A stretch of DNA of 64,000 bases from Mycolicibacterium chubuense. Lineage in GTDB: Bacteria; Actinomycetota; Actinomycetes; Mycobacteriales; Mycobacteriaceae. Positions 37,656 through 52,018 of the stretch are shown one piece after another. Each line of letters begins with the position of its first letter. Position 1 is the stretch's first letter. Location of the stretch: positions 21,708 to 85,707 of the forward strand of contig NZ_JYNX01000011.1 of assembly GCF_001044255.1 (NCBI RefSeq). Direction: 5' to 3'. Under the pieces are notes generated by a model. The model was not told where the DNA came from. It made no database searches and saw only the letters and a list, made by a program, of their open reading frames with translations. A program made the translations under genes and the position numbers.

Positions 37656-39194
37656 TCAGGTGGCCCGGTCGTAGTGTGCGCGCACGGTGTCGACGGTGTC
37701 GGCCTCGGCAGCGCTCTTGTCGTCGCGGTAGCGCAGGACCCGGGCGAACCGCAGCGCCATGCCGGCGGGGTAGCGCGTCGAGGTCTGGATGCCGTCGTAG
37801 GCGATCTCGACGACCTGCTCGGGGCGCACCCGCACGACGTAACCGTCGGTGGGCCCGTCGGCCAGGTCGAGGAACCGCTGCGTCTGCCAGTCCAGCATCT
37901 CGTCGGTCATGCCCTTGAACGTCTTGCCGAGCATCTTCAGCTCGCCGGTTGCGGGGTCGCGCGCGCCGAGATGGATGTTCGAGAGCTTTCCTGTTCGCCG
38001 CCCCGAACCCCACTCGACGGCCAGCACCACCAGGTCGAGGGTGTGCACCGGCTTGACCTTCAGCCAGCCCGCGCCGCGGCGCCCTGCCTCGTACGGCGCG
38101 TCGGCCGCCTTGGCCATCACCCCCTCGTGACCCGCCGCCAGTGTCGCGTCGAGGAAGCGTTGAGCCTCGTCGGCGTCGGTGGTGACCAGCCGGTCGACCC
38201 GGTGGTGGCCGGGCACGATCGCCGCCAGCGCCGCGCTGCGCTCGTGTGCCGGACGGTCGAGAAGGTCGGTGCCGTCGACGTGGAGCAGATCGAAGTAGAA
38301 GACCGACAGGCGTTGATCGCCCGGACCGGCGCCGCCGCGGCGACCGAACCGCGACGCGGTGACCTGGAACCGGTGCGGGCGCCCGTCCGGCTTGAGCGCG
38401 ATCGCCTCGGCGTCGGCGATCAGGGTGTCGACCGGGAGTGCCAGCGTCGCATCGACCACCTCCGGGAGCCGCGCGGTGACATCGTCGAGGCTGCGGGTGA
38501 AGATCGACACCGATTCTCCGGCGCGGTGGATCTGCACGCGCGCGCCGTCCAGCTTTGCTTCGAAGGCAGCGCTGCCGCCGAGACGCTGCAGGGCGTCGGC
38601 GACGCCGGTGGCGGTCTGGGCGAGCATGGGTCCGACCGGCTTGCCGACACGCAGCGTGAACTGCGCCAGCGCCTCCTGCCCGCCGGTCAGCGCCGCGGCG
38701 GCCACCGCGGGCAGATCGCCGCCGAGCATGGCGGCCCGTCGTACCTCGGCGGGCGGCAGGCCGGCGGCGGAGGCGACGGCGTCGGCCATCACCCCGACGA
38801 GTGCTCCCTGCCGGAGTTCGCCGCCGAGCAGCCTGCGCAGGAACGTCTGCTCGACGTCGGTGGCGGCCGCGAAGAGCCGGCCCAGCAACTCGGCGCGCCG
38901 GGCCTGCGACCCCTTGCCCGCGGTCGTCCCGATCTCGGTGAACAGGGCTTCGACCTCGCCGACGGTGAGCCGGGGTTCGGCACCGGGTGCGGGTAGGGAG
39001 CGCAGCGCGGCCCAGCCGACGCCGATCTGTCGCTGCGTCAGCTCGCCCGACAGCCAGGACACCACCACGGCCACCGCGTCGGGGTCCTCGGCGGCCGCGA
39101 CGCGCAGCAGGTCGCCGAGGCGGGCGGTCTTCGCCCGTCGCGACGACGAGGCGGCCACGTCGGCCGACGCACGGGCGACCTCTACCAGGAGCAC
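37656..39194 (-). CDS. ligB: ATP-dependent DNA ligase
   Basis: 512 residues. The adenylation site is [14 protein letters not shown] (K-x-D-G, lysine near residue 210), with downstream nucleotidyl-transferase motifs YTRSLDD-like ([14 protein letters not shown]), [21 protein letters not shown] and WLKVKP; an N-terminal helical DNA-binding domain precedes it. It closely follows the sequence of mycobacterial LigB as remembered, a backup ligase to NAD-dependent LigA. The start is taken as GTG at 39194, giving the family length (LigB about 507 residues in M. tuberculosis), although there is no ribosome site. Upstream extensions are low-complexity shadows. Confidence 0.92.
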
Positions 39195-39228
39195 GGGGTC
39201 AGACTGGCACGGGCCACCGACATCCGGC

Positions 39229-40749
39229 TCACGTGACCTTGAAGGTGATGGAGTGCCAGCCCGTCGCGCCGTCGGGGACCGGGTCGGCGCGATCCGGGGT
39301 CTGGGTGTAGCCGGTGTTGTCGGTGGCCCGCACCGTGATCTTGTGGAAGCCCGGACCGGCCGCCTCCCAGTCGAAGCTCCACAGCCGCCAGGTGTCGTTG
39401 GAGTAGGAGGCGCCGAGAGTGGCCTGCTGCCAGTCGCCGTCGTCGATCTGCACCTCGACGGTGCGTACGCCCCGGTTCTGGGCCCACGCGACCCCGCCGA
39501 ACGTGACCGGGCCGGCGGGGACGTCCTGGCCGGCGCGCGGGACGTCGATGCGCGACTCGGTCTTGATGGGACCGCGCGGCGCCCAGCCCAGTTTGGTCCA
39601 GTACGCCTCGGCACGGTCGAAACGGGTGAGTTCGAGGTCGACGAGCCATTTGGTCGCCGACACATAGCCGTACAGCCCCGGCACCACCAGCCGGGCCGGG
39701 TAGCCGTGCTCGATCGGTAGGGGCTGGCCGTTCATGCCGATCGCCAGCAGCGCGTCGCCAGAGGTGAGTGCCTCGACCGGCGTGCCCGCGGTCCAACCGT
39801 CGACCGACGTCGACAACACCATGTCGGAGCCGGCGTCCACCCCGGCCTCGGCGAGCAGGTCGGCGACGCGGTATCCGGTCCACACGGCATTCGAGATCAG
39901 TTCGCCACCAACGGGATTGGAGACACAGGTGAGCGTGACCACGCGTTCGACGGGGTCGAAGCGGTCCAGGTCGGAGAAGCGCAGGGTCACCTCGCGGTCG
40001 ACCATGCCGTGGATGCGCAGTTGCCATGCCTCGCGGCTGAGCTGCGGGACGGTCAGCGCGGTGTCGATGCGGTAGAAGTCCTCGTTGCTCGTCACGAATG
40101 ACGGCAGCGCAACGTCTTTCGGCTGCACCGTGTCGGGGATCGGGGCGGCGGGCTGGGAAACACGGGGCAGCGCGAACGCGCTGCGGTCGCCGGAGACCGA
40201 GGACGCCAGGCGGGTGATCACCACACCGGCGACCCCGCTGACCGCGCCTGCGGCGAGCAGTCCCAGAGTGACCAGCGAGCGGCGCCGGCCAGCGTCGGGG
40301 GAGTCTTCGGCGGCATCGCGGTCCCGCAAGCGGCGCGAGATCACCAGCCTCAGTGCGGCGATCCCGCACACGACGCCCACCAGTGTGGGAATGGTGTCCA
40401 CGGCGGTCGCCCCGGCCCGCGACAGCACCGCCGCGCAGCCCAGCGCGCCTGCGGCGGCGATCATCGCGCTGCCCAGCGGGCGTCGTGGGCCTTCCAGGAT
40501 CCCCGCGACGGCGGCCAGCGCGGCGATGACGAGCAGCACGGCGACCGAGAGCACCAGTTTGTCTGCGGTGCCGAAGGTCTGGATGGCCCATTCCTTGACC
40601 GATCCGGGCGTCAGCTGGATCACCGCGGAGCCGACGGCCGTCCGCACGTCGGCCTGCGGGCCGAACGCCGCGCCGACCAGCTGCGCCACTCCGACGGCGA
40701 CGGCGGCCGCGGCGACGCCGCCCGCAGCCCGGGCACCCAGAGTGGTCAT
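39229..40749 (-). CDS. Membrane-anchored molybdopterin oxidoreductase (sulfite oxidase fold)
   Basis: 506 residues: about four N-terminal membrane segments (1-185), then a sulfite-oxidase-type molybdopterin domain with the molybdenum-ligating Cys in [42 protein letters not shown], and a C-terminal dimerisation domain (about 405-500, [19 protein letters not shown]). Electron transfer should happen on the outer face of the membrane. Similar to Rv0218-type proteins; physiological substrate unknown, perhaps oxidised methionine or sulfite. ATG at 40749 with TAGTTT 6 nt upstream (leaderless). Ends 34 bp before the ligB start. Confidence 0.85.
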
Positions 40750-44531: not shown

Positions 44532-45302
44532 TCAGCGGTAGGTGTCCCACCCCAGCTTGATGGCCAAGGCCAGACCGGCGAGCCCGATCGCCACCCGCAT
44601 CGGGCCGGCGGGCGCGTGGCGCACCACGACCGGTCCCAGACGCGATCCGAGCAGGCAGCCGAGGCCGAGCGCCGCGACCGCGGCCCACTGCACCGGCGCG
44701 ACGATCGCGAACACCACGGCGGCGCTGCAGTTCGAAGCCCCCAGCACGACGTTCTTGGTGGCGTTGGCGTGCGCCAACGTCGTTGTGCCCGAACGCAACA
44801 GCAACGCCAGCAGCAACACACCCGCAGCCGCACCGAAGTAGCCGCCGTAGACGCAGATCGCCGCGATCGCCGCCGTCTCGGCCAGCAGACCGGCCAGCTC
44901 GCGTCTGCGGCCCCGCTCGACGTCCGCGCGAGGCCGCACCGGCAGCAGGATCGCCACGGCCGCCACACCGAGCAGCACCGGCACCGCCCTTTCGAAACCC
45001 TCGGCCGGGGTGGACAGCAGCAGCGCCGCTCCGGCCACGCCGCCGAGAATCGCGAACGGCACGATCCGGGCGAGCCGACGGCCCTGCCCCGCCAATTCGG
45101 GTCGCGAGCCCAAGACCGACCCGATGCCGTTGAAGACCAGGGCGACCGTGTTGGTGACGTTGGCGGTGACGGGCGGCAGGCCCACGACGAGCAGAGCCGG
45201 ATAGGTCGCCACCGAGGCCAGCCCCGCGATGCTCCCGGTGAGACCCCCGAGGATGCCGGCCGCGACGAGCAGCACCGTCTGCGACCACGACACCGGGCTC
45301 AT
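44532..45302 (-). CDS. TauE/SafE-family anion permease
   Basis: 256 residues with about eight hydrophobic segments in two repeated halves, typical of TauE/SafE sulfite or organosulfonate exporters (GGLTGSIAGLASVATYPALL with the conserved Gly/Pro helix, and VYGGYFGAAAGVLLLALLL in the second half). The ATG at 45302 is used; earlier codons are low complexity. It is divergent from the attenuator-like leader and LeuA-domain gene and convergent with the kinase-fold gene. Substrate not predictable. Confidence 0.82.
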   Translation of the reverse strand: MSPVSWSQTVLLVAAGILGGLTGSIAGLASVATYPALLVVGLPPVTANVTNTVALVFNGIGSVLGSRPELAGQGRRLARIVPFAILGGVAGAALLLSTPAEGFERAVPVLLGVAAVAILLPVRPRADVERGRRRELAGLLAETAAIAAICVYGGYFGAAAGVLLLALLLRSGTTTLAHANATKNVVLGASNCSAAVVFAIVAPVQWAAVAALGLGCLLGSRLGPVVVRHAPAGPMRVAIGLAGLALAIKLGWDTYR

Positions 45303-45379
45303 TGTGCCAATCGCGGACGGGGCCGGCAGCGCCACACCCTCCGAGGCGAATGTGGTTGCAGCGGCGGCGCGGGCGGGGC

Positions 45380-45385
45380 TAGCAT
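45380..45385 (+). promoter_or_regulatory. -10 hexamer TAGCAT for the leader peptide and LeuA-domain gene
   Basis: TAGCAT ends 7 nt before the GTG at 45393, so the transcript is predicted to begin exactly with the leader peptide codon. This makes the peptide leaderless, a strong reason to think it is translated. Confidence 0.55.
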
Positions 45386-45392
45386 CGTCGAC

Positions 45393-45434
45393 GTGCCGAG
45401 GCGACTCGTAGTAGCAACCCGCAGCGGGGTCTGA
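45393..45434 (+). CDS. Predicted leader peptide of a branched-chain amino acid attenuator
   Basis: A 13-residue reading frame, MPRRLVVATRSGV, starting at a leaderless GTG. It contains Leu-Val-Val encoded by CTC GTA GTA, and GTA is a rare valine codon in such GC-rich genomes, so a ribosome should pause there when Val/Leu-tRNA is short. Its 3' half and stop lie inside the large hairpin at 45414-45465, so translation must open that stem. Actinobacterial leuA genes are known to carry such a leader (the LEU element, from memory). Too short for ordinary gene finding. Confidence 0.55.
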   Translation: MPRRLVVATRSGV

Positions 45435-45465
45435 TCCAGACCGACCCCTCGCTGTGGGTCGTTGC
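45414..45465 (+). ncRNA. Attenuator-like RNA element (LEU-element-like) upstream of the LeuA-domain gene
   Basis: GCAACCCGCAGCGGGGT (45414-45430) pairs with ACCCCTCGCTGTGGG plus GTTGC (45444-45465) in a long, nearly complete stem. A smaller alternative hairpin GGTC-7-GACC (45428-45442) lies in its apex. The leader peptide frame runs into the 5' arm. It resembles the conserved pseudoknot/LEU element described upstream of actinobacterial leuA; which conformations alternate is inference. Confidence 0.55.
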
Positions 45466-45508
45466 TCGTTCGTCGGTCGCTTTCCCCTTCATCTCGAGGC
45501 CGGCACCC

Positions 45509-45991
45509 ATGAACTCCTCCATCGCCATCACACCCCTGTCGTCGTTCGCCGCATGCGTGGATGGCCGTGTGCCCCGCCCGTTGCGTGCGGACGCCGAGAC
45601 GAAGACCTTCGATGCGTTCGTCGGGGAGTACGCGCCGCACGCCGGGCCGGTGCGCCTCGGGCAGTGGTCGTGCGTCGACGGCGACCGTCCCGCGGGCCGG
45701 CTGGGCCCGCAGGCGCGTACCTATCAGGCCACGCTGGCAATGGGGGACAGCATCGGCACGGCGCGGGCCGCCGCGTGCGGTCCGGTGGCCGCGCTGACCG
45801 CGATGCTCCACGAACGCGGGGTCGCCGTCGAGGTGACGGCCTTCCACCAGCTGCGCGCCGGCGGGCAGACCGCGACGTTCCTGTGCGGCAGCGGCGCCGG
45901 GCGTGCGGAGTGGGCGCTGGGCTGGTCGGACGACCCGGTCCAGTCAGCGTTGCGGGCGGTGGTCGCCTGCGCCAACCGCCTGCTGGCCTGA
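45509..45991 (+). CDS. Free-standing LeuA allosteric (dimerisation) domain protein
   Basis: 160 residues without a catalytic TIM barrel. The sequence TYQATLAMGDSIGTARAAACGPVAALTAMLHERGVAVEV, then FHQLRAGGQTATFLCG and SALRAVVACANRLLA, follows the C-terminal regulatory domain of 2-isopropylmalate synthase (the leucine-binding, dimerising LeuA_dimer domain; read in parts). No LeuA catalytic domain is adjacent. It has an independent promoter, leader peptide and attenuator-like RNA, so it is expressed as a leucine/valine-responsive protein. It could modulate LeuA in trans, sequester leucine, or serve another synthase. Starts at ATG 45509. Convergent with the CYP136 gene. Confidence 0.7.
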   Translation: MNSSIAITPLSSFAACVDGRVPRPLRADAETKTFDAFVGEYAPHAGPVRLGQWSCVDGDRPAGRLGPQARTYQATLAMGDSIGTARAAACGPVAALTAMLHERGVAVEVTAFHQLRAGGQTATFLCGSGAGRAEWALGWSDDPVQSALRAVVACANRLLA

Positions 45992-45997
45992 GGTCCG

Positions 45998-47485
45998 TCA
46001 GCGCAAGGGGCGCAACACGATCGGCATGCCATCCAGCGGCACCGGCATCCCGCCGTAGTCGTAGCGCGGGGTGTAGCCGGCCTTCGGCAGCTCGAGCCGG
46101 TAGCGGCGCAGCAGCCGGTGCATGACCGTCTTGATCTCCAGCTGACCGAACACCATGCCGATACACTTGTGCGCTCCGCCGCCGAACGGCGCGAACGCGT
46201 AACGGTGTCTCTTGTGTTCGTTGCGCGGCTCGGCGAAGCGCTCCGGGTCGAACTTCTCCGGATCGGTCCACAGCTCGGGCAGCCGGTGGTTGATCGACGG
46301 CCACGTCACCACCGCGGTGTCGGCCGGGATGTAGTAGCCGAGCAGCTCGGTGTCGCGCACCGTCTGGCGGAAGTTGAACGGCAGCGGCGTCATCATCCGC
46401 AGCGACTCGTTCACCACGAGGTCGTAGGTCTCGAGCTTGTCCAGCGCCTCGATGTCGAGCGGCCCGTCACCGATCCGCTCCGACTCCTCGCGCAGCCGGT
46501 CCTGCCACTGCGGATTGGCCGCCAGGTGGTAGGCCATCGTCGTCATCGTGGAGGTCGACGTGTCGTGGGCCGCCATCATCAGGAAGATCATGTGGCTGAC
46601 GATCTGGTCGTCGGTGAAGCTGCCGCCGTCCTCATCGGCCGAGTGGCACAGCACGCTGAACATGTCGGTGCTCTCCGAGCGGCGCTTCTCACCGATCCGG
46701 CTGGAGAAGTAGTGCTCGAGCGTCTCGCGGGCCTTGATGCCCCGCCACCAGGTCAGCGGCGGCACCGGCTTGCGGACGATGGCGTTGCCCGCCCGGGTGG
46801 TCGTGGTGAACGCCTGATTGATGGTGGTAACCAGTTCGCGGTCGGTCCCCGCCGGGTGACCCATGAACACCTCGGAGGCGATGTCGAGGGTCAGTTCCTT
46901 GATCGCCGGATAGAAGAGGAACCGCGGATCGTTGGGCACCCAGTCGTTGGCGAGCACGCGGGTCGCGACCGAGTCGACATGCGGCACGTAGCCGGACAGC
47001 CGGGTACGGGTGAACGCCTCCTGCATGATGCGGCGGTGGAACAGGTGCTCGTCGAAGTCGAGCAGCATCAGACCGCCGTCGAAGAACGGGCCGATGATGG
47101 GATCCCAGGCGCGCTGGGAGAAGTCCTTGTTCCGGTTGGTGAAGACGGCCTGGGTGGCGTCGGGGCCCAGCGCCATCACCGCCGACAGCGCGGGCGACTG
47201 CGAGTAGTAGATGGGCCCGTGCTTGCGGTACTGCTCGAGGATGAAATCCGGACCGCCGCGGAACGTCTCGATCATGTGCCCGATCACCGGCAACCCGGCG
47301 TCACCCTTGATCGCCTTGAGTCCGCTGCCCGCCGGCGGCTCGGCGAACACGAACTGGTCCCACTCGGTGTTCTTGAGGCGCTTCTCCACCGCGCCCATGC
47401 CGGGAATGGTCACCGGTGTGGGCTTCAATCGCCGTTTGGCCTGGTCAAGCCAGTAGTCGGTGGCGCTGATCGTCGGCATCTTCAC
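45998..47485 (-). CDS. Cytochrome P450, CYP136 family
   Basis: 495 residues. Haem loop FAPFGGGAHKCIGMVFG with the ligand Cys, K-helix NESLRM (ExxR), and I-helix MAAHDTSTST with the acid-alcohol pair for oxygen activation. The order of neighbours (TetR and SDR on the other side) matches M. tuberculosis Rv3057c-Rv3059, where Rv3059 is CYP136; from memory the CYP136 family is close to eukaryotic sterol P450s. The ATG at 47485 follows AGGAG. A perfect TetR-type palindrome at 47542-47559 lies 57 bp upstream, so it is probably repressed by the divergent TetR protein. Substrate is unknown; a sterol or terpenoid is likely. Confidence 0.88.
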   Translation of the reverse strand: MKMPTISATDYWLDQAKRRLKPTPVTIPGMGAVEKRLKNTEWDQFVFAEPPAGSGLKAIKGDAGLPVIGHMIETFRGGPDFILEQYRKHGPIYYSQSPALSAVMALGPDATQAVFTNRNKDFSQRAWDPIIGPFFDGGLMLLDFDEHLFHRRIMQEAFTRTRLSGYVPHVDSVATRVLANDWVPNDPRFLFYPAIKELTLDIASEVFMGHPAGTDRELVTTINQAFTTTTRAGNAIVRKPVPPLTWWRGIKARETLEHYFSSRIGEKRRSESTDMFSVLCHSADEDGGSFTDDQIVSHMIFLMMAAHDTSTSTMTTMAYHLAANPQWQDRLREESERIGDGPLDIEALDKLETYDLVVNESLRMMTPLPFNFRQTVRDTELLGYYIPADTAVVTWPSINHRLPELWTDPEKFDPERFAEPRNEHKRHRYAFAPFGGGAHKCIGMVFGQLEIKTVMHRLLRRYRLELPKAGYTPRYDYGGMPVPLDGMPIVLRPLR

Positions 47486-50339: not shown

Positions 50340-51413
50340 CTAGCTCTCGGTACCGACAGCGGCGACGGGGCGCTCGGTCATCGCCAGGTCCAGCCGGACG
50401 CCGAGCAGTCGCACCGGCCGGCTGAGATCGAACTCGCCGAGCAGGTCCGACGCGGTGCCGACGACGATCTCCGGGTCGGTGCCGGGCGCAGGCAGCGTAC
50501 GGATCTTGGTGCGGGTGAAGAAGGTGGCGGTGCGCACCGTGACCGCGACGCGGGTCACCACCCGGTGCTCGTCGACGATCTCGGTCAGCGTGCGGCGCGC
50601 GAGATCGGTGACCGCGGTCGCCATGTCGTCGCGGTCGGTCAGATCCTCGGGGAATGTGACGACGTGGCTGCGGGAACGGGGCACCCACGGCGCCGCGCTG
50701 ACCGTGGTGTCGCCACCGCCTTTGGCAAGCAGCAGGATCCACAGCCCGGTGGTGGGACCGAACGTGGCCGTGAGCGTCGACGCGTCGGTGGCCGCGAGGT
50801 CGGCGACGGTCGAGATGCCCATGGCGGAGAGTTTCTTCGCGGTCTTGGGGCCGACGCCCCACAGCGCGTCGACGGGCCGGTCACCCATCATGGTCATCCA
50901 GTTGTCGTCGGTCAGCGCCGCGATGCCGGCCGGCTTGCCGAAGCCGGTGGCGACCTTGGCGCGTTGCTTGTTGTCGCTGATTCCGACTGAGCACGTCAGG
51001 CCTGTCTGCGCGGCGATCGTCTGCTGGATGCGGCGCGCCAGGTCAAACGGATCCTCGGTCGGACCGGCGCCCACATACGCCTCGTCCCAGCCCCAGACCT
51101 CGACGGGATGGCCGAGGTCGCGCAACGCCTGCATCACCTGCGTCGAGGCGGCGTCGTAGGCGTCGGGATCCGACGGCAGGAAGGCGGCGTCCGGACACCG
51201 CTTCGCCGCCGCCCGCAGCGGCATCCCGGCACGCACGCCGAACGCGCGGGCCTCGTAGGACGCGCACGTGACCACCTTGCGGGCTTCGGTGGGATCACCG
51301 CTCCCGCCGACGATGACAGGCAGTCCGACCAGGTCGGGCCGGCGCTGCAGTTCGACCGACGCGAGGAACTGATCCAGATCGACGTGCAGGATCCACTGCG
51401 CCGGCGAACTCAT
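50340..51413 (-). CDS. DNA polymerase IV-like translesion polymerase (DinB2 type)
   Basis: 357 residues of a Y-family polymerase. ILHVDLDQFLASVE holds the first metal aspartates and VWGWDEAYVGAG the second acidic site, with little-finger sequence to the C-terminus. At the steric-gate position, where most DinB enzymes have Phe or Tyr, the residue is Leu17 (DQFLASVE). M. smegmatis DinB2 has Leu at the matching position and accepts ribonucleotides (from memory), so this enzyme may too. No beta-clamp-binding motif was looked for exhaustively. The ATG at 51413 overlaps the TetR stop as ATGA, and the ATPase gene follows. Confidence 0.92.
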   Translation of the reverse strand: MSSPAQWILHVDLDQFLASVELQRRPDLVGLPVIVGGSGDPTEARKVVTCASYEARAFGVRAGMPLRAAAKRCPDAAFLPSDPDAYDAASTQVMQALRDLGHPVEVWGWDEAYVGAGPTEDPFDLARRIQQTIAAQTGLTCSVGISDNKQRAKVATGFGKPAGIAALTDDNWMTMMGDRPVDALWGVGPKTAKKLSAMGISTVADLAATDASTLTATFGPTTGLWILLLAKGGGDTTVSAAPWVPRSRSHVVTFPEDLTDRDDMATAVTDLARRTLTEIVDEHRVVTRVAVTVRTATFFTRTKIRTLPAPGTDPEIVVGTASDLLGEFDLSRPVRLLGVRLDLAMTERPVAAVGTES

Positions 51414-52018
51414 GTCCCGCAGAGTTTGGCGACCAGCGTGTCCCATGCGTCGCCGAGGTCGCTCAGGGTGCGGCCGCGTTCGGTGGTCTCGTGGCGGACG
51501 TAGTCGGCGTCGAGCAGGGCCAGCAGCGCGGTGGTCTGCGCATCCAGATCGCCGCTCGTGTGTGCCTGGTCCAACAGCATCCGAACGTGGCTGTGGTGCA
51601 GCATCATCGGGGCGTTGAACCGCATCTGCGGATCTCGGCCCACGTCGGACAGCAGCGCGTGGTGGGTGTCGACGAACGCGAGGCGTTCGCGGCCGTAGGC
51701 CCGAAGCCGGTCGGCCGGCGCAGCGCCGGGGCCCAGCGGCGGCGGTCCGAACAGGAACGCCTGCTGCAGGGCCTTCTCGTCCTCGTCGAGCAGCACGATC
51801 ATCAGCCCGGCGCGGCTGCCGAACCGGCGGAACAGCGTGCCCTTGCCGACGCCCGCGGCGGCCGCGATGTCATCGGTGGTGACCGCCTCGGCGCCGTGTT
51901 CGGAGACCAGCCGGCGCGCCGCGTCGAGAAGCAGGGCCCGGTTACGCGCAGCGTCTCCCCGCTCCGGGGGTCCGGGCTCGCTGACGGACAGGGTCGTCAG
52001 GCCGTCGGAGACGCTCAC
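51410..52018 (-). CDS. TetR-family transcriptional regulator
   Basis: 202 residues, N-terminal TetR domain (VTTDDIAAAAGVGKGTLFRRFGSR) followed by a helical ligand domain. The GTG at 52018 has TAAAGT six nt upstream (leaderless). It is translationally coupled to dinB2 by ATGA and divergent from the FMN-reductase gene; the palindrome at 52043-52066 overlies its promoter. The M. tuberculosis order Rv3054c-Rv3055-Rv3056 is the same. It likely represses itself, dinB2 and the reductase. Confidence 0.88.
   Translation of the reverse strand: MSVSDGLTTLSVSEPGPPERGDAARNRALLLDAARRLVSEHGAEAVTTDDIAAAAGVGKGTLFRRFGSRAGLMIVLLDEDEKALQQAFLFGPPPLGPGAAPADRLRAYGRERLAFVDTHHALLSDVGRDPQMRFNAPMMLHHSHVRMLLDQAHTSGDLDAQTTALLALLDADYVRHETTERGRTLSDLGDAWDTLVAKLCGT

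Follow-up and report, generated by a model that had tools for sequence, protein, structure and literature searches.

Downstream of a valine-coded leader peptide, the window (the whole stretch of 64,000 nucleotides of Mycolicibacterium chubuense DNA that was analysed) carries a gene for a free-standing LeuA regulatory domain, and the leader of this orphan gene is paralogous to the LEU element that precedes leuA. The orphan leader is homologous to the leuA leader, the paired positions covary, and valine and leucine codons are partitioned between the two leaders by the downstream gene; the valine specificity of the orphan-gene leader is thus well supported. We lean slightly towards the reading that this valine-coded LEU-type leader controls a LeuA-derived regulatory subunit that acts in trans and spares ketoisovalerate. 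A fuller version is proposed tentatively for the Mycobacteriaceae, with somewhat less than even confidence: the leuA control module was duplicated and one copy re-coded from Leu to Val, and valine shortage makes a free-standing allosteric domain that throttles LeuA in trans and directs ketoisovalerate to valine and coenzyme A, with WhiB7 possibly involved.

The orphan gene (45509..45991, plus strand) encodes a protein of 160 aa comprising the linker and allosteric domain of LeuA, as assigned by homology and fold. Single-sequence searches were too weak to establish homology, as was a PDB profile match with an E value of 0.0011; it was settled by profile and fold comparison. The protein has the fold of LeuA_dimer (PF08502) with a score of 13.3 bits, below the curated cut-off of 24.9, and the linker piece of the LeuA domain (LPR..L, W..F..Y) is also present. 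Searches of the 160 aa with Pfam and NCBIfam gave no match to the catalytic barrel of 2-isopropylmalate synthase. The protein is homologous to LeuA and LeuA-like in fold, in agreement with the preliminary description, which had proposed that the regulatory domain of LeuA stands here apart from its enzyme and matches the LeuA C-terminal domain. Compared with the residues that we take to form the LeuA pocket, the frame G533/P534/A536 and an aromatic residue at 554 are retained, but Glu stands at position 550 and Gln at 558 (LeuA positions), and the capping loop is shorter; judged from these two polar replacements, the shorter loop and the partly retained frame, leucine binding appears doubtful.

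The identity of the protein to LeuA is low (22–29%), Glu108 and Gln114 are invariant in the orphan family where LeuA has Ala at both positions, and the gene neighbourhood varies across genera. These features favour an alternative in which the orphan protein is a stand-alone amino-acid sensor that serves a partner other than LeuA and no longer belongs to the leucine pathway. We regard this as possible but unlikely, because the kinship of the leader with that of leuA persists across many genera, the fold is that of the dimer domain in LeuA itself, and LeuA was found in 60 of the 61 genomes searched, including all 54 of high quality. Gene neighbours are conserved within the genus but were not seen at 16 other-genus loci (about 3.4 kb each), in which the leader is still there. 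A P450 gene (46001-47485, minus strand, identified with Pfam), a neighbour in 79 of the 80 named loci listed, was weighed as a possible functional partner but dropped because it did not appear at these 16 loci within a reach of about 1.5 kb on either side. This gene, a DinB-type polymerase gene (50340-51446, minus strand) and an ATP-dependent ligase gene (37656-39665, minus strand), the latter two assigned by resemblance, form a neighbourhood that resembles the cyp136-dinP-ligB region of M. tuberculosis.

The leader peptide, VPRRLVVATRSGV followed by TGA (13 codons; 45393..45434, plus strand), contains the sensor codons GTA GTA (Val-Val) at 45408..45413. Among 110 mycobacterial loci, the peptide ranges from 13 to 20 codons with 44 distinct peptides, and the reading frame is kept through in-frame length changes. 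GTA-GTA is in frame in all 110 and also in L145, which was left out of this set, ends in TAA instead of TGA and was counted as the 111th leader read (111/111). GTA accounts for none of the 189 Val codons in six coding sequences of the window. Leaders of sister genera frequently have GTT as the second Val codon, leaving the residue unchanged.

The leuA leader of the same genome reads GTG CAG CGG GTG CTC CTT CTC GGA CGC CGC GAC GGG GTC TGA, so that the sensor stretch is CTC CTT CTC, as opposed to CTC GTA GTA in the orphan leader. Within the genus, 28 of 30 leuA leaders were read, L060 (no match) and L062 (ending in TAA) being excluded, and all carry three consecutive Leu codons (CTC CTT/CTC CTC). 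The same partition was found across 27 sister genera, represented by 27 genomes with 54 elements, of which 47 were classed by script and seven by eye (L242, L246, L258, L261, L277, L282 and L283): all 33 elements that precede leuA genes lack GTA and contain two or more Leu codons in their sensor stretch, whereas GTA is present in each of the 21 upstream of the orphan gene. The random chance of this partition is about 2e-15, although the genomes are related and hence not independent, and the 21 orphan elements come from a search with an RNA model, which orphan genes with no such leader would escape. Five further orphan and nine further leuA elements fit the same partition, and in-frame GTA was present at 30 of 30 orphan loci, 16 of them in other genera (28 by script, L217 and L218 by eye); these two sets of additional orphan loci partly overlap. 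When six diverged orphan genes were picked regardless of leader, five were preceded by a short open reading frame containing GTA, and none was found at the sixth (L290).

Two side observations concern these elements. The leader reading frame stops at an earlier TAG in L217, L218, L246, L258 and L261, with in-frame GTA still kept. L199 (G073:C9), L191 (G451:C100), L193 (G420:C98) and others have another LeuA paralogue of full length (about 580-600 aa), which comes with its own Leu-coded LEU element, the leader of which ends in GGA or GGV.

A leader that reads Leu and Val together, with the protein as a generic modulator of the branched-chain pathway, would account for the Leu codon that directly precedes GTA GTA in 79 of the 110 leaders and for the LVV found in most sister-genus leaders. 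The ilvB1 leader of M. tuberculosis uses LVVI, and mutation of these codons abolished the response (PMC13236596). General branched-chain sensing nevertheless seems rather unlikely here, since GTA is constant while the adjoining Leu codon is missing in 31 of the 110 leaders, and some sister-genus leaders have no adjoining Leu at all (MQRIQVVVHRRSGV, MKRVRVVVRRSGA, MRRGRAVSSRSEA). As a correction to the preliminary description, the amino acid sensed is valine and not leucine, and the Leu codons belong to the leuA leaders (33/33). The leader peptide, predicted to be leaderless, and the two rare GTA codons within Leu-Val-Val, both described at that stage, agree with the kept frame at 110 loci and with the codon counts in the window.

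The orphan leader folds better than all of 200 shuffled sequences and shares its plan with the genome's own leuA leader, which has a similar hairpin followed by a pseudoknot partner. Stem 1 of the LEU element (plus strand) pairs 45419..45428 with 45448..45457 and covaries with the leuA leaders, and the pseudoknot joins GACCGAC (45439..45445) and GTCGGTC (45472..45478, both plus strand), with A-U replaced by G-C between the orphan and the leuA groups. In a set of 30 orphan and 18 leuA leaders, pairing reaches 99.9% over stem 1 (10 pairs) and the pseudoknot (7 pairs), against 25.7-51.5% in slid controls. L020 (contig end) was dropped, as was L023 (internal TGA) from A2 and A5, and ten of the 28 leuA leaders read are not in A5. 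Four pairs change on both sides, giving 53 double-change cells, as many as were obtained in 0 of 500 shuffles; two of the five covariation measures, namely the number of double-change pairs (44/500) and the pair types (500/500), lay within the column shuffles. As the double changes lie largely between two paralogous groups, they count as few events.

A pattern search of the same genome did not discriminate, since the reversed control produced chance matches in similar numbers (36 vs 22), and the RNA model R1 was used instead. Built from 48 leader sequences that include both own-genome elements, R1 recovered the orphan and leuA leaders as two strong matches in this genome (106.1 and 102.4 bits), the third match scoring 20.7 bits (E 0.25). 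No Rfam match was obtained. A covariance search thus agrees with the kinship to the actinobacterial LEU element suggested beforehand, as do the shared plan and the covariation. Since a peptide is present but its codons are Leu-Val-Val with GTA GTA, the leader was filed as a paralogous variant of that element. The ribosome-binding stretch of the orphan gene (45493..45506, plus strand) can pair with the opening codons of the leader (GTGCC / GGCAC) and may form a base stem. In the LEU element as published, the base stem joins the sensor codons to the Shine-Dalgarno box; the pairing seen here falls on the opening codons. The duplex z for this stem averaged -1.92 over 31 loci (23 below -1), with a weak -0.73 in the window and -0.95 for leuA. 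Swapping partners across lineages clearly weakened the duplex, from -13.8 to -9.5 (a cost of about 4.4 kcal/mol) in one leader type, and caused little loss in the other (-14.6 to -13.8, about 0.9 kcal/mol).

The conserved stem and pseudoknot would also be expected if the leader codons were kept for RNA structure and the LEU element bound a regulatory protein, as was proposed in 2005 and argued in PMC1262725. This explanation is improbable for the orphan leader, because in-frame length changes, the exchange of TGA and TAA and the retention of Val through GTA/GTT all point to translation, GTAGTA is invariant even where unpaired (between 2 and 6 of the 6 bases take part in its best 3' pairing), and Val and Leu are perfectly partitioned by the downstream gene.

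A free-standing orthologue was found in 32 of the 37 same-genus genomes of the relatives set, and a match with an E value of at most 1e-10 in 348 of 396 sampled genomes of the genus (329 of 361 high-quality ones); at least three of these matches, with best E values of 3e-13 to 9e-11, may represent LeuA; about 12% of the mycobacterial genomes sampled gave no match. At the family level, 198 of 201 genomes had a match, a count that includes LeuA, and free-standing genes were read in 25 sister genera (the 21 above and g23, g25, g47 and g71). In an order-wide sample of 101 genomes, the orphan gene was present in 11 of the 12 family members (G029 being the exception) and in none of the 89 genomes outside the family, where matches lay in frames of at least 377 aa. 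The window genome is 5.9 Mb, and its closest named relative among the best 80 of 214 is Mycolicibacterium chlorophenolicum, with 98% protein identity. The orphan gene is under purifying selection (median dN/dS of 0.176 over 127 pairs); together with the matches in most genomes of the genus, this makes a decayed, functionless leuA copy very improbable, even though the barrel is absent and one of 31 mycobacterial copies (L023, with an intact leader) has an internal TGA.

A -35-like hexamer, TTGCAG (45356..45361, plus strand), and a -10 element, TAGCAT (45380..45385, plus strand), precede the leader. Of the 110 mycobacterial loci, 108 have TTG[CA] 19-21 nt before the -10 element, and 108 have TANNNT at a distance of 7 or 8 nt from the start codon, in line with the early observation of TAGCAT 7 nt upstream of a leaderless GTG. 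The transcript is predicted to start at or beside GTG 45393, and we infer that the orphan-gene transcript is leaderless. An AT-rich block lies 4-8 nt before the invariant TTGC in 108 of 110 loci (45348-45361 in the window), with A/T contents of 93, 92 and 75% at -7 to -5. This arrangement resembles the WhiB7 motif of PMC10727445, in which a WhiB7 binding site (ChIP) is reported upstream of MAB_3424c, and the M. chelonae counterpart of that gene is listed in the whiB7 regulon (PMC8191103). WhiB7 may therefore additionally control transcription of the orphan gene, linking this branch point to translation stress.

No intrinsic terminator with a U tract was found in 45300-46100, and none of the 110 loci has a U run longer than 4 nt between the leader stop and the start codon. 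Control is therefore probably exerted on translation rather than by transcription attenuation, although Rho may play a part. The leuA leaders are likewise described as having no terminator in the available portions of PMC1262725 and PMC8079986, and S. coelicolor leuA leader mutants are at odds with classical attenuation, as told in PMC1262725. Overall, the regulatory domain, leader peptide and LEU kinship of the preliminary description stand; the sensor is corrected to valine, and a classical attenuator becomes improbable.

In the mechanism that we propose, the transcript would begin at the leader GTG, and a ribosome lacking charged tRNA-Val would stall at GTA-GTA, covering the leader 5' end, which if free would pair with the ribosome-binding site of the orphan gene. 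Stalling would thus permit translation of the orphan gene. Its protein would join LeuA through the shared dimerisation fold and lower the use of 2-ketoisovalerate by LeuA, sparing this precursor for valine and pantothenate. Footprint folding of the window leader, in a model that excludes the pseudoknot, gave no sign that the ribosome-binding site opens (mean unpaired value of 0.51 in the free leader, 0.44 with the ribosome stalled and 0.55 with it at the stop), and the switch step is therefore offered as a hypothesis. Control by codon content has a mycobacterial precedent in the ilvB1 leader. We infer the direction of the switch and its translational mechanism, as well as that the protein binds LeuA and in which sense it alters LeuA activity. 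A trans-acting role on LeuA, already a natural inference from a regulatory domain without its enzyme, is kept as the likeliest function, with about even odds. A M. abscessus LeuA allosteric-loop mutant has raised leucine and lowered valine (PMC11057210); as deregulated LeuA lowers valine, flux through LeuA competes with valine.

Traces of the gene may already exist in the literature. MAB_3424c is variously named leuA, 2-isopropyl malate synthase and hypothetical protein in three papers, and a ribosome-protected uORF lies upstream of it in PMC4974804, where it is called leuA. Because of this uORF, and because the real leuA of M. abscessus is MAB_0337c (PMC11057210), MAB_3424c is probably the orphan gene. 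A literature search, mostly confined to papers outside subscription, found no description of a free-standing LeuA regulatory domain.

If the proposed reading is true, the system is a clean natural case of a leader peptide whose amino-acid specificity changed along with the controlled gene, and of a feedback domain freed from its enzyme to act in trans. It would give a function to a protein family of most sampled mycobacterial genomes that, in the annotations available, is at best hypothetical or a second leuA, and it may be the route by which a lack of valine tunes the synthesis of leucine. With a Leu-coded and a Val-coded leader in one genome, the long-open mechanism of the LEU element becomes testable by codon exchange.

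IlvN of acetohydroxyacid synthase and HisZ of ATP phosphoribosyltransferase are regulatory parts supplied in trans and are comparable in their working; unlike in these systems, the LeuA enzyme here keeps its own regulatory domain as well. M. tuberculosis LeuA (1sr9, 3fig; domain PF08502) shares its fold, including the linker piece, with the orphan protein, which lacks the barrel, scores below the Pfam cut-off and has a shorter loop. The ilvB1 attenuator of M. tuberculosis (PMC13236596) resembles the orphan leader in that its peptide contains Leu-Val-Val and its regulatory codon is GUA, but it differs in having an intrinsic terminator and in controlling an enzyme operon. The closest comparison is the LEU element (Seliverstov et al. 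2005, PMC1262725), described in the available part of that paper for leuA and one transposase only. Both elements have a short open reading frame, a stem with a pseudoknot and no terminator, and the base stem with the ribosome-binding site of the LEU element has a possible counterpart in the orphan leader. The LEU element lies before leuA and carries a Leu run, whereas the orphan element lies before a free-standing regulatory domain without the barrel and carries Val GTA sensor codons.
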